NCBI RefSeq assembly: GCF_900168265.1
Contig: NZ_FVZF01000021.1
Coordinates: 1-64,000 of the forward strand
Direction of reading: 5' to 3'
Length of the DNA: 64,000 bases
Source: Salegentibacter salarius
GTDB lineage: Bacteria; Bacteroidota; Bacteroidia; Flavobacteriales; Flavobacteriaceae
The notes under the pieces were generated by a model, which was not told the origin of the DNA, ran no database searches, and saw only the letters and a program-made list of their open reading frames with translations. Of the stretch, positions 34,243 through 39,685 are shown piece by piece. A program made the position numbers and the translations under genes. How positions within the stretch are numbered: the first letter of the stretch is position 1; each line of letters opens with the position of its first letter.

Positions 34243-37200
34243 ATGCTGAACAAAGGCATTAAATTCTTAATAGAAAATAAACTCGTAGCGGTTATTTTAC
34301 TCGTCCTTTTTGTGGGATGGGGTATCGTGAATGCGCCATTTAACTGGGACACCGGCTTTTTGCCTTCTGAACCCGTGGCGGTAGATGCGATTCCCGATAT
34401 TGGTGAAAACCAACAAATAGTTTTTACAAAATGGCCGGGGCGATCACCTCAGGATATTGAAGATCAGATCACCTATCCGCTTACGACTTCCCTGCTGGGA
34501 ATTCCCGGGGTAAAAACCATTCGTAGTTCTTCTATGTTCGGCTTCTCCAGTATCTATATCATTTTTGAAGAAGATGTAGAATTTTACTGGAGCCGAAGTA
34601 GAATTCTGGAAAAGCTCAATTCACTTCCCTCTAATTTGTTACCCGATGGCGTAAGCCCTGCCCTGGGGCCAGATGCTACCGGCCTTGGTCAGATCTTTTG
34701 GTACACACTTGAAGGCCGCGATAAAGACGGAAATGTTACCGGTGGCTGGGATTTACAGGAGCTAAGAAGTATACAGGATTATTACGTGAAATATGCTCTT
34801 TCTGGGGCGAGCGGGGTTTCTGAAGTGGCTTCTATTGGTGGCTATGTTCAGGAATATCAAATAGATGTTAATCCGGAACTTATGCGCCAGTACGATATTG
34901 GACTTCAGGAAGTGGTTGTAGCGGTGAAAGAAAGTAATCGAGATATAGGCGCACAAACCCTGGAGATCAATAATGCCGAATATCTGGTTCGTGGTTTAGG
35001 TTACGTGAAATCTGTTGAAGATATCGAAAATGCGGTGGTTACTTCTGAAGATTATACTTCAGTAAGCATCAAAGATATTGCTAAGGTTTCCTTAGGTCCT
35101 GCACAAAGAAGAGGGATTCTGGATAAGGAAGGGGCTGAGGTTGTTGGCGGAGTTGTCGTGGCCCGTTATGGAGCTAATCCGTTGGAAGTGATCAACAATG
35201 TTAAAGAGCAAATCGATGAGATTAGCCGGGGTTTACCTTCTAAAACCCTTAGGGATGGAACCGTTTCCCAGGTTACCATCGTGCCCTTTTATGATCGTAC
35301 TGAACTGATAAAGGAAACCCTGGACACCTTAAGTGAGGCGTTAACCATGGAAATCCTTATCACGATCTTAGTAATTATTGTGATGGTATTCAATTTACGG
35401 GCTTCGGTGCTTATTTCGGGCTTGTTGCCGGTGGCGGTTCTAATGGTTTTCATCTCTATGAAACTGTTTAATGTGCCGGCCAATATTGTGGCTCTATCTG
35501 GTATCGCTATTGCTATTGGGACTATGGTAGATGTTGGCGTTATTTTATCTGAAAATATTCTCCGGCATTTGGATGCACGCAGCACCGATGAACATGGAAA
35601 TAAACTTTCTATTAATAATGTTGTTTATAATGCCACTTCAGAAGTTTCCGGAGCGATCTTAACTGCAGTGCTAACCACTATTATTAGTTTTATCCCTGTC
35701 TTTACTATGATAGGAGCCGAAGGAAAATTATTTAGACCCCTGGCATTTACTAAAACCATGGCGCTAGTGGCTTCGCTAATCGTCGCTTTATTTATAATTC
35801 CACCTTTTGCAGCAACTTTCTTTAAGAAAAGAACCATAAAAGCCAGCGTTGGATATGTACTCAATGCGATCCTTGTTATAGCGGGACTCACTGCGATGAT
35901 CTTTGGTTATTTTACCGGGATTATTTTAGTAGCTTTTGGCGTGACTGGTATTCTGATACTTCAGAAAAAGATCACGCCAAAAATGGCAAATCTTATCAAT
36001 ATCATCATTTCCGCTTTTGCTATTGTCTTTTTACTGGCGGAATATTGGAGGCCGCTTGGTTTTGATAGGAGCATTTTTATGAACCTTATTTTCGTTGGTC
36101 TTATCGCCTTCGGGCTACTTGGCATTTTCACGATTTTTAGAAGAAATTATACCCGAATTTTGACCTGGGCGCTGGCCAATAAAATTCTTTTTCTATCAGT
36201 GCCAACGGTAATCGTGATTTTCGGTTTCTTAATTATGCAAAATACAGGCAAGGAATTTATGCCTTCTCTAAACGAAGGCTCCTTTTTATTGATGCCCACT
36301 TCTATGCCTCATGCCGGCGTGGAAGAAAACAAGCGAGTATTGCAGCAACTTGATATGGCTGTAGCTAGTATTCCTGAAATTGAAACCGTGGTGGGAAAAG
36401 CTGGCCGAACAGAATCGGCACTGGATCCAGCGCCACTTTCTATGTACGAAAATATTATTCAGTATAAATCTGAATATATGCGTAATGCGGATGGTGAGCG
36501 CCAAAGATATAAGGTAAATGAAGATGGTTTATTTGTATTGAAAAATGGCAAGCTGGCACTAAATCCTAATTCTGATATTGACGAAGATGCGAATTATAAA
36601 GAAGCTAAACTGGTCTCTGATCCATTGAACCTAAAACACGAGCAACTACTGCCTGATGAAGATGGGGAATATTTCCGAAACTGGCGTCCCGCAATAGAAT
36701 CACCCGACGATATCTGGAACGAAATCGTACAGGTTACCAAGTTACCAGGAGTTACTTCGGCACCAAAACTTCAGCCTATAGAAACCAGACTGGTTATGCT
36801 CCAAACCGGGATGCGCGCACCAATGGGAATAAAAGTAAAAGGAGATAACCTGCAACAAATTGAAGCTTTCGGTATGAAATTGGAGAAAATCCTTAAAGAA
36901 GCTGAAGGCGTAAAGGATGAAGCTGTTTTTGCCGATAGAATTGTTGGGAAACCTTATTTGTTGATTGATATTAAGCGCGATCGCCTTGCAAGATACGGAG
37001 TGTCTATTGAAGATGTTCAGCAGATTCTGGAAGTTGCGGTGGGCGGAATGCAAATAACGCAGACTGTAGAAGGTCGGGAACGATATGGAGTTAGAGTACG
37101 TTATCCACGAGAATTAAGAGCTAATCCCGAAGATATTAAAGATATTTATGTTCCTGTAGAAGGTGGAAGCCCTATACCTTTAAGCGAATTAGTCAATATA

Positions 37201-37998
37201 AGATATGAAAAGGGGCCGCAGGTGATTAAAAGTGAGGATACCTTTTTAATTGGATACGTGTTGTTCGATAAGCTAGATGGATATGCGGAAGTAGACGTTG
37301 TAGAAAATGCCCAGGCAACTATTCAGGAGAAGATAGATTCGGGAGAATTGGTAGTTCCACAAGGTATCAACTACCGTTTTACGGGTACTTATGAGAATCA
37401 ATTAAGGGCAGAAAAAACCCTTTCTGTCGTAGTGCCTTTATCCTTGCTCATCATATTTCTGATCCTTTATTTTCAGTTTAAATCTGTTTCGACTTCCCTA
37501 ATGGTGTTTACAGGAATTGCAGTTGCTTTTGCCGGCGGTTTCCTCATGATCTGGTTTTATGGTCAGGATTGGTTTATGAATTTTAACTTTTTTGGAGAGA
37601 ACCTGCGGGACTTATTCCAGATGCATACCATAAATCTAAGTGTGGCGGTTTGGGTTGGTTTTATTGCCCTTTTTGGGATTGCGACCGATGATGGAGTGGT
37701 GATGGCCACTTACCTTACCCAAACCTTCGATAAAAATCTAACTGAAACTAAAGACCAGGTAAGAGCATCTGTAATAGAAGCAGGTGAAAAGCGGATAAGA
37801 CCTTGTTTGATGACCACGGCAACAACGATCCTTGCTTTACTGCCAATTCTAACTTCAACCGGGAGAGGTAGTGATATCATGATCCCAATGGCAATTCCTG
37901 CCTTTGGAGGAATGCTCATCGCATTGATAACGCTTTTCGTGGTGCCGATACTTTTTAGTTGGAGGAAGGAAAGTCAGTTAAAAGTTAAAAGTGAATAG
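34243..37998 (+). CDS. cusA: CusA/CzcA-family heavy-metal efflux RND transporter
   Basis: A 1251-residue proton-driven pump, about 200 residues longer than E. coli CusA. The N-terminal [31 protein letters not shown] and the helix-4 motif [20 protein letters not shown] are characteristic. Met-rich segments ([26 protein letters not shown]) in the periplasmic cleft support copper or silver as substrate. The extra length is an inserted membrane stretch (about 530-620) and a periplasmic insert (about 745-830). It works with the downstream TolC channel and adaptor. Its last eight codons are made from a short repeat that recurs inverted in the tolC gene. Confidence 0.94.
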   Translation: [1251 protein letters not shown]

Positions 37999-38010
37999 TG
38001 AAAAACTAAG
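37976..38010 (+). repeat. Short repeat, left copy, overlapping the cusA stop
   Basis: The AT-rich agttaaaagttaaaagtgaa-type sequence encodes the end of cusA (SQLKVKSE) and runs past its stop. An inverted, about 80-90 % identical copy lies at 38476-38516 inside the tolC signal-peptide region. The two face each other across the four-helix-bundle gene. Confidence 0.7.
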
Positions 38011-38049
38011 AATGAAAAACTAAAAGTGGTCAACTAAAAATTTACAATT

Positions 38050-38403
38050 ATGGCTAAAAGTATTTTAAGAGATAAAAGCTATTCGTTTGCTCTTTTGGTT
38101 ATTCAGAGACATAAAATAATTGTTAATGAGAAAAAGGAGTTTGTGATAAGTAAACAAATTCTAAGAAGTGGAACAGCAATCGGTGCGCTTATTCGTGAAG
38201 CAGAATTTGCAGAAAGTAAAAAAGACTTTATTCATAAAATGAGCATTGCTTTAAAAGAAGCAAATGAAACTATTTATTGGTTGGATTTATTAAAAGATTC
38301 AGAGTTTATAGAGCTTTCAATTTATGAGCAACTTCAGTCTAAATGCAAAGAATTACTAGCTATGTTGGTGAGTACCATTAAAACCGCCAAATCTAAAATT
38401 TAG
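38050..38403 (+). CDS. Four helix bundle protein (23S rRNA intervening-sequence protein family)
   Basis: The 117-residue product is an all-helical S23/IVP-family protein: RDKSYSFALLVIQRHK, ILRSGTAIGALIREAEFAESKKDFIHKM, ALKEANETIYWLDLL and the C-terminal ELLAMLVSTIKTAK. Homologues are encoded inside 23S rRNA intervening sequences, as the Avd protein of diversity-generating retroelements, and as stand-alone genes scattered through Bacteroidota genomes; their stand-alone function is unknown. It interrupts the cusA-tolC gene order and is flanked by inverted short repeats, suggesting arrival as a cassette. No reverse transcriptase or rRNA gene is nearby. Confidence 0.9.
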   Translation: MAKSILRDKSYSFALLVIQRHKIIVNEKKEFVISKQILRSGTAIGALIREAEFAESKKDFIHKMSIALKEANETIYWLDLLKDSEFIELSIYEQLQSKCKELLAMLVSTIKTAKSKI

Positions 38404-38407
38404 TAAG

Positions 38408-39685
38408 ATGAGAAATTTTCAAATAAAATTCATTGGGCATATCGAAGGACTAAAGTTAAGCTTTAAAAGCCTTCTCGTACTTTTCACTCTTCACTTTTCG
38501 TTTTTAACTTATAACTCCAGTGCCCAGCAATTAGAGTCTTATATCCAGGTGGCTGAAGAGAATAATCCGCAGATCCAATCTTTTAATTTGAAATATGAGA
38601 TTGCAGAGGAAAAGATCAATGAGGTAAACGCATACCCTGATACCGAGTTTGGGATAGGGTATTTTGTAAGTGAACCAGAAACCAGAACCGGTCCGCAAAA
38701 ATTAAGGCTTTCCGTTAGGCAGATGCTTCCCTGGTTTGGGACTATTACCGCAAGGGAAAATTACGCGGGTTCTATGGCAGATGCAGAATATGTGGAGATA
38801 GCTGTCGCCAAGCGCCAATTGGCACTTGCGGTAGCACAGGCTTACTACAGATTATATGCGAACGAGACTAAACAAAAAATCTTAAAGGAAAATATAGAAT
38901 TATTGGAAACCTTTCACGAGCTGGCGCTTAATTCCCTTGAAGTGGGCAGTGCTTCAGCTGTAGATGTGTTGAGGCTTCAAATGCGCCAAAATGACCTGGC
39001 CCAGCAAAAAGAAAGCCTGGAACAGGAATTTAATGCGGAAGAAGTGCTCTTCAATAATCTGCTGAACCGGGAAGAAGATCTTTCAGTAGAGGTAGTTGAT
39101 TCGCTTTTTATTCCGGAGGCTCAAACTGATAAGGAGGAAAGAGTAGCTGAGGTACACCCGGAATTATTGAAATTCGACAAACTCTATGAATCGGTAGTAG
39201 AAGCTGAAAAATTAAATCTTAAAGATGCGGCACCAAAACTGGGGTTTGGGGTAGATTATGTAAGCGTTGCAGACCGTGCCGATATGGCTGTAGCCGATAA
39301 CGGGAAGGATATTCTTATGCCTATGGTTTCGGTTTCTATTCCCATTTTCAACAGTAAATATAAGTCGGTTACAAAGCAAAATGAACTTCGACAAAAGGAA
39401 TTACAGGCGCAAAAAGACCAACGCTTAAATCTTTTACAAACCAGGTTAGAAGAAGCCGTGAGCATAAGAAACTCGGCAAGGGTGACTGCGAACACTTTTA
39501 TTGAAAATTTAGAACAGGCGAAAGATGCAGAAGAGATCCTGGTAAGAAGCTATGAAACCGGGACAATTGATTTTAATGATGTGTTGGAAATACAGGAATT
39601 ACAACTAAAATTTCAAACCGGACTTATCGAGGCAGTGAAGAACTATTATATGCAAGCTGCGGTAATCAATTACCTAAGTAAATAG
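38408..39685 (+). CDS. TolC-family outer membrane efflux channel
   Basis: A 425-residue protein with a signal peptide ending near NSSAQQ (~residue 41, longer than usual) and two OEP repeats of long coiled-coil helices, with VAQAYYRLYANETKQKIL and IRNSARVTANTFIENLEQAKDAEEIL as typical stretches. It forms the outer-membrane exit duct for the CusA pump. Part of its signal region (38476-38516) is the inverted copy of the repeat at the end of cusA, and the N-terminal 14 residues before it look unlike a normal signal start, so a remodelled N-terminus is likely. It begins 4 bp after the four-helix-bundle gene. Confidence 0.92.
   Translation: MRNFQIKFIGHIEGLKLSFKSLLVLFTLHFSFLTYNSSAQQLESYIQVAEENNPQIQSFNLKYEIAEEKINEVNAYPDTEFGIGYFVSEPETRTGPQKLRLSVRQMLPWFGTITARENYAGSMADAEYVEIAVAKRQLALAVAQAYYRLYANETKQKILKENIELLETFHELALNSLEVGSASAVDVLRLQMRQNDLAQQKESLEQEFNAEEVLFNNLLNREEDLSVEVVDSLFIPEAQTDKEERVAEVHPELLKFDKLYESVVEAEKLNLKDAAPKLGFGVDYVSVADRADMAVADNGKDILMPMVSVSIPIFNSKYKSVTKQNELRQKELQAQKDQRLNLLQTRLEEAVSIRNSARVTANTFIENLEQAKDAEEILVRSYETGTIDFNDVLEIQELQLKFQTGLIEAVKNYYMQAAVINYLSK
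38476..38516 (-). repeat. Short repeat, right inverted copy, inside the tolC signal region
   Basis: Reverse complement begins agttataagttaaaaacgaa and continues agtgaagagtgaaaagtacg. It aligns with 37976-38010 with a 7-base insertion and few mismatches. It encodes the hydrophobic core (about LLVLFTLHFSFLTYN) of the TolC signal peptide. Confidence 0.65.

Follow-up and report, generated by a model that had tools for sequence, protein, structure and literature searches.

What is a small gene of the IVP family doing inside a heavy-metal efflux operon, between inverted repeats that form coding sequence of both neighbouring genes? The question is raised by a locus of Salegentibacter salarius (assembly GCF_900168265.1, contig NZ_FVZF01000021.1), where such a gene lies between cusA and tolC in a stretch of 64,000 nucleotides (nt), positions 1 to 64,000 of the contig, here called the window. 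Judged from sequence comparison, the gene and its repeats, which are degenerate tandem arrays of heptads, form a unit that recurs at other IVP genes, with arms linked to the IVP subfamily, with decayed copies and with selection acting on the protein. The cus feature is probably a resident copy of a family of selfish units that live in protein operons and resemble the intervening sequences (IVSs) of ribosomal RNA (rRNA). The initial annotation had taken the feature for a small cassette, an idea that is supported for the family.

The locus between cusA and tolC

The features of the locus are given below with window coordinates; genomes of the genus carry G numbers, G000 being the own genome, and loci carry L numbers.

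34243..37998, + strand: cusA, heavy-metal RND pump (TIGR00914, 801.7 bits); the left arm supplies its last residues
37976..38038, + strand: left arm, degenerate heptad array (from sequence and inverted repeat; lag-7 array 37970-38026, 25/35)
38034..38044, no strand: short direct repeat CTAAAAATTTA ahead of the IVP start (similar stretch at the gene-less G008 junction)
38050..38403, + strand: IVP gene, four helix bundle protein of 117 amino acids (PF05635, TIGR02436; ratio of nonsynonymous to synonymous substitution rates, dN/dS, 0.20 against the G010 ortholog)
38393..38402, no strand: short direct repeat CTAAAATTTA at the IVP end (from sequence and comparison with G008)
38408..39685, + strand: tolC-type outer membrane efflux gene (PF02321, 143 bits); the right arm supplies part of its signal region
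38481..38516, - strand: right arm, inverted heptad array of about five units (from inverted repeat; lag-7 array 38473-38521, 24/35)

The window IVP scored 85.8 bits with PF05635 (cut-off 33.8) and 98.3 bits with TIGR02436 (cut-off 24), and its nearest named relative is from Salegentibacter sediminis (90%). The inverted repeat (37976-38004 and 38481-38509) comprises 29 nt with 86% complementarity and a spacing of 476 nt. Both arms are degenerate tandem arrays with a period of 7 nt. The left one, at about 37976-38038, consists of nine rough heptads such as AGTTAAA, AGTGAAT, AGTGAAA and AACTAAA, beginning in the order AGTTAAA AGTTAAA AGTGAAT AGTGAAA, and the right arm is made of such units in reverse complement. 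The left array takes in the final CusA codons (QLKVKSE) with the stop, and from the right array (38481-38516) come TolC residues 25-36 (LFTLHFSFLTYN), the hydrophobic portion of a putative N-terminal signal region. The locus reached an inverted-pairing score of 21.0 and a lag-7 match of 0.77. Profiles and repeat thus confirmed what the initial annotation had described, an IVP gene between cusA and tolC whose inverted repeats are coding sequence of both neighbours; the 7-nt period and the variation of the repeat sequence from copy to copy go beyond it.

A direct repeat, CTAAA(A)ATTTA, brackets the IVP gene, yet lies inside the arms, and one such stretch is retained in G008. No transposase was found between the arms, where the sole open reading frame (ORF) of at least 80 amino acids matched only PF05635 in a Pfam search.

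Heptad arms as a property of IVP genes

Of 395 genomes sampled from the phylum, 298 had IVP matches, and a single genome held as many as 11 scored copies. The own genome holds 12 PF05635 matches, which represent 11 genes, one of them split; by eye, each gene is flanked by an imperfect inverted repeat whose sequence differs from gene to gene. A set of 197 distinct stand-alone IVP loci, mostly from Bacteroidota, was assembled from 51 of the 102 genus matches, 69 loci among the matches listed from the 395-genome sample, and 77 of a named set of 80. Loci whose match contains stops (L015, L019, L036, L037, L038, L091), the split gene (L010/L012), a locus at a contig end (L024), two with short flanks (L192, L200) and L128, which is the same ORF as L265, were excluded. 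The remaining genus and phylum matches are not in the count, and 26 loci with odd ORF calls were retained.

The mean inverted-arm score of the 197 loci was 18.7 with their own arms, 10.9 with the arms of other loci, 10.6 with shuffles and 10.2 with shifted windows. The 95th percentile of the shifted windows was exceeded at 165 loci, and 137 loci placed within the top 5% among the 60 cross-comparisons made for each. Autocorrelation of the IVP flanks peaked at lags of 7, 14 and 21 nt, with no such peaks in the control. A pairing score of at least 14 was reached by 158 loci, with a best period of 7 in 133 and of 8 in 15. The joint cut, a pairing score of at least 14 together with the 7-nt period, was passed by 135 of the 197 loci (genus 41/51), a fraction that may differ from that of the whole family because the named set was chosen by similarity to the window IVP and the other sets favour high-scoring matches. 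Among 349 further genes in the own genome only 2 passed, one of them adjoining an IVP arm, as did 2 of 385 shifted windows. Pairing alone was less selective in these control genes: their mean was 11.25, 36 reached 14 and eleven reached 16.5, none of the eleven with the heptad period. Among 14 HxlR loci, two reached 14 and none 16.5, compared with 45 and 34 of the 51 genus IVP loci. The initial annotation had proposed asking how often such repeat pairs enclose IVP genes, and these counts reveal a general association.

The DNA is AT-rich and the region contains several short inverted matches, which speaks for chance or a compositional artefact. This explanation is nevertheless close to negligible, given that shuffles, shifted windows, other loci and control genes all score far lower.

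At the 91 loci with a clear run in both arms, the median was 4.6 units per arm, and four to five units were counted in 60 arms on the left and 63 on the right. Read along the coding strand, the units belong to the AG type (left arms, 365 AG against 58 CT; right arms as reverse complement, 300 against 59). Four loci labelled as other phyla (L130, L155, L195, L198), found by their likeness to the window IVP, also passed the joint cut. In one IVP clade (MSHFRKILVWQKS / MNTFRDLLIWQKS; L071, L079, L082, L083, L280, L306), the best period of the arms was 8 and not 7.

The arm sequence differs between IVP subfamilies, yet left and right arms match across the gene. Among loci of different context, heptad similarity rose with IVP similarity (rho 0.185; largest of 300 permutations 0.043), and the same trend was obtained with heptad profiles (rho 0.298, permutation standard deviation 0.018). 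IVPs of the window clade (62-90% identity) are accompanied by heptads of the AGTGAAA/AGTTAAA/ATAGTGA type in three unrelated places: the cusA-tolC gap of several genera, a MoxR-DUF58 gap in Winogradskyella and a hydrogenase operon in a metagenome-assembled genome (MAG) labelled Desantisbacteria. Conversely, the fadB-fadA site harbours several IVP subfamilies, each with different heptads. Neighbour names at sites other than cus (fadB, fadA, ffh, folD, hem, MoxR, DUF58, hydrogenase) were read from translations.

Two further ideas on the arms were abandoned. A general co-evolution of arms within orthologous sites was apparent in some groups (17/17 loci in the largest, 8/8 in another) and absent or reversed elsewhere. 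A similarity of arms in the same context at low IVP identity was set aside, as homologous coding sequence falls within the 90-nt flanks.

Occupied sites, decay and solo arrays

Occupied cus sites were also found in Tenacibaculum, in Aquimarina and in two of the group's MAGs (L129, L132, L133, L136, L139), and within the genus in G007 and G010. Since it is occupied across genera, the cus copy is old. The cassette of the initial annotation therefore stands as a gene with inverted repeats that supply the ends of both neighbours, but not as a recent splitting of the operon. Gene-less relatives with the same repeats, which would have spoken against a cassette, are represented in part by G008 of the same genus (CusA 98%, TolC 88%), which has no IVP gene but retains the heptads on the left and, in weaker form, the arm on the right. 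We read this junction as a loss of the gene rather than as arms that preceded it, because other sites keep arms where the gene is missing; the direction is a reading and not a proof. Both arms without a gene were found in G003 at the L001 and L006 sites and in G009 at L006, and G010 has neither arms nor gene at L006. The paralogous cus operons L054-L057, L063 and L064 lack the IVP gene and keep a short AG-type heptad-like run, and the more distant cus operons L058-L060 and L065 have neither gene nor heptads. Candidate empty sites besides cus were not clean.

IVP matches are present in 14 of 15 genus genomes, and 16 of the 102 matches contain in-frame stops. At the ffh-folD site, nine of 14 genomes contain IVP sequence and arms (G009 with stops), G001 and G011 another palindrome, and three were unreadable by the marker used. 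The L002 site contains the unit in G000, G007, G008 and G006, a diverged unit in G012, a solo array of another heptad in G001, G005, G004, G014, G009 and G011, no clear array in G010, and other sequence in G003 and G002.

Several observations accompany these sites. The solo AACTGAA-like arrays at the L002 site (L208-L213) resemble TAACTGA repeats described from, among others, Gramella (PMC4679880), and may be remnants of such units. In G002 (L216), a stretch that resembles a Y1/RAYT-type transposase, as read from its translation, replaces the IVP unit at the L002 site. Where the unit is missing at ffh-folD (G001, G011) and fadB-fadA (G002), a CCTCCC-type palindrome occupies the gap (L100, L110, L236), as if different repeats competed for the same spots. 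A GGTAGACTTA-like stretch in gene-less relatives of L004 hinted that arms are made from the target at insertion; this idea was dropped because these relatives may keep part of an older unit.

Solo arrays also raise the question whether the heptads are intergenic satellites made by slippage, near which IVP genes merely settle or persist. Heptad copy number varies between relatives, heptamer arrays are described from other genomes (PMC4679880), solo arrays replace the unit in six genomes at the L002 site, and the lag-7 cut was passed by 19 arrays across 464 kb of own-genome DNA (6 in shuffled sequence), only four of them located at IVP genes, namely at three of the four present in this DNA. The signal, however, is inverted pairing across the gene and not the mere presence of heptads: the own direct score averaged 12.9 compared with 18.7 for the inverted one, and in the 464 kb no array away from IVP genes had an inverted partner above 15.5, whereas those beside IVP genes reached up to 21.0. 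Arms also tend to follow the IVP subfamily across contexts. Satellites are thus an improbable origin of the arms.

The protein itself is constrained. In 28 of 32 IVP ortholog pairs dN/dS was 0.03-0.29, the other four being saturated, and to judge by these ratios IVP genes are under purifying selection. Of 74 context groups, 52 pointed the same way as both neighbours, 8 ran in the opposite direction and 14 were mixed (52 against 8, p 5e-9). Strong selection and co-orientation, together with the long conservation at the cus and ffh-folD sites and the existence of heptad arrays without an IVP gene, would also suit a host regulator that binds heptad arrays as operators, controls its own expression and that of the operon, and spreads by ordinary horizontal transfer or rearrangement. 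Such a role appears unlikely, though it is the most serious competitor of a selfish unit: presence at orthologous sites is patchy and units decay, the 74 groups represent many unrelated contexts, a single site may hold differing subfamilies with differing arms, and the right arm in the window lies within coding sequence.

Relation to intervening sequences and proposed mode of action

The closest parallel is the 23S rRNA IVS of Coxiella burnetii. It is described as 428 nt long, with an IVP (S23p) ORF that is enclosed by a terminal inverted repeat of 28 bp and preceded by tandem GACAGAT heptamers, and was called a selfish element (PMC4990558). A terminal inverted repeat likewise encloses the ORF at the window locus and across the family. 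Unlike the Coxiella IVS, the units reported here lie between protein-coding genes, in many copies per genome and with differing arms; location inside an rRNA gene does not apply to the window unit, whose site is the cusA-tolC gap. Their ORF is constrained, whereas the Coxiella ORF is thought to be unexpressed and S23p is stated to have no known function (PMC4990558). Inserts in the rRNA of candidate phyla radiation bacteria are reported to encode homing nucleases and in some cases IVP (PMC11270868).

Further likenesses concern either the gene or the heptads. In a survey of cas loci with 18 IVP genes, IVP genes lie between two operon genes, for example cmr3 and cmr2; they are presented among cas-locus functions, in a passage that does not mention surrounding repeats (PMC3936711). 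The TAACTGA heptamers of Beggiatoaceae, Cyanobacteria and some Bacteroidetes, including Gramella, form intergenic 7-nt arrays, many near start codons. They are reported as almost wholly direct, and the terms S23, four helix and intervening are absent from the main text of that report (PMC4679880). In the trnL group I intron of Nostoc, the stem of the P6b stem-loop is likewise built from degenerate 7-nt repeats (TDNGATT or NNTGAGT), which shift from class to class; this stem-loop lies inside an intron, and the passages describing it mention no IVP ORF (PMC4476775). In the literature searched, which included few subscription papers and no preprints, we found no report that stand-alone IVP genes are flanked by heptad arms; TIGR02436 was not named, and PF05635 or 23S_rRNA_IVP was named in three papers.

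The one solved relative found, PDB 2rld (IVP / Avd proteins), belongs to the same family as the window IVP (E 1.4e-34). PF05635 is said to resemble Avd (PMC10053308), a protein that works with a reverse transcriptase, which brings to mind a non-autonomous relative of diversity-generating retroelements in which IVP, like Avd, would partner a reverse transcriptase that acts in trans. No RVT_1 (PF00078) match was obtained in the own genome, which is 99.95% complete and has the 12 IVP matches, and although a past or foreign enzyme could have served, a retroelement origin is very improbable. Nor is a Y1 transposase located beside the repeats in the own genome: its single Y1_Tnp match lies on contig C15, without IVP. 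Spread by phages was rejected as well, as two scans of viral contigs yielded one IVP locus, with heptad-like flanks by eye, and none. GIY-YIG genes were considered as co-users of the arms. Of ten own-genome matches, six flanks were read (L040-L045); five showed other repeats or palindromes, and the sixth match lies inside the split IVP gene.

These readings led to two side observations. The short GIY-YIG genes L040, L042, L044 and L045 of the own genome sit among GTCACCCCGAATTCATTTCGGGGTCTAA or TTCGACAAGCTCAGACTGAC type repeats, possibly a separate gene-repeat association. At G000:C5:165127-165722 (L345, L043) and G005:C34:81951-82546 (L344), an IVP gene is split at the conserved SNIA/EG motif by about 290 nt that contain an open frame for a GIY-YIG nuclease and are flanked by an inverted repeat of their own (CCCTGTGTAAT / ATTACACAGGG). 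The two halves of the IVP gene are open in each of the two species and the DNA is 84% identical; this insert looks like a homing insert within a selfish gene.

How would an IVS-like unit persist in a protein operon? The unit, roughly 0.5 kb in length, has an IVP gene enclosed by a pair of inverted, degenerate heptad arrays, often with four to five units each. It would be selfish and work like the ORF-bearing 23S rRNA IVSs. In the transcript, the arms would fold into a stem with the IVP gene in its loop, and the host operon would therefore tolerate the unit. The IVSs of rRNA are cut out by RNase III, and the cut ends stay unligated. Minimum free energy folding of 60 loci gave a mean of 27 pairs between left and right flanks, compared with 13 for shuffled flanks. 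Furthermore, a ring-shaped IVP multimer may recognise the heptads in the arms of its unit; this would account both for arms specific to a subfamily and for a number of units close to five. An IVP-family protein of Xanthomonas is a homopentamer (cited in PMC4990558), so that about one heptad unit per protomer is conceivable; this analogy is a lead, not a result.

Several results weigh against the selfish unit or narrow it. The joint cut was failed by 62 of the 197 loci, some with a period of 8 or 9 and some with weak or no arms. The named set alone was weaker in the cross-locus test (33/78 in the top 5%, in an earlier run), because AT-rich heptads are common to the loci there. Of the 19 arrays that passed the lag-7 cut in the 464 kb, 15 are not located at IVP genes, and about seven of these look convincing by eye. 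Within the genus, the heptad-profile trend (rho 0.154, permutation standard deviation 0.069) barely equals the largest permutation (0.155), and the general trend between heptad and IVP similarity could partly reflect shared host lineage. Within orthologous sites, own arms beat swapped ones in only 11 of 21 groups and 74 of 123 loci. G-U pairs showed no excess among arm mismatches (190 G-U against 197 A-C), hence nothing points to the arms being maintained as a stem in sense RNA, and the idea of selection on such a stem was discarded. Finally, no clean insertion with target duplication was found, and the cus site is old.

A selfish unit of the IVS kind remains our favoured explanation of the cus feature. 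A wider proposal is made with more hesitation than confidence. Stand-alone IVP genes with inverted heptad arrays may constitute a distinct class of minimal selfish elements that is common in Bacteroidota, in which a ring-forming protein and two heptad arrays, at about one heptad for each protomer, have co-diversified into many specificities. The rRNA IVSs would then be members that landed in rRNA loops, and solo arrays and cyanobacterial intron stems possible remnants.

For the IVP family, inverted heptad arrays that tend to match the subfamily, present at 135 of 197 copies, provide a definable unit with boundaries, and this heptad-arm unit joins stand-alone IVP genes to the rRNA intervening sequences. 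The CT-type arm in the window reads as a hydrophobic signal core, which suggests that the unit can act as a supplier of coding sequence to its neighbours. Two old questions, the function of IVP and the movement of IVSs, thereby become direct tests of binding and mobility.

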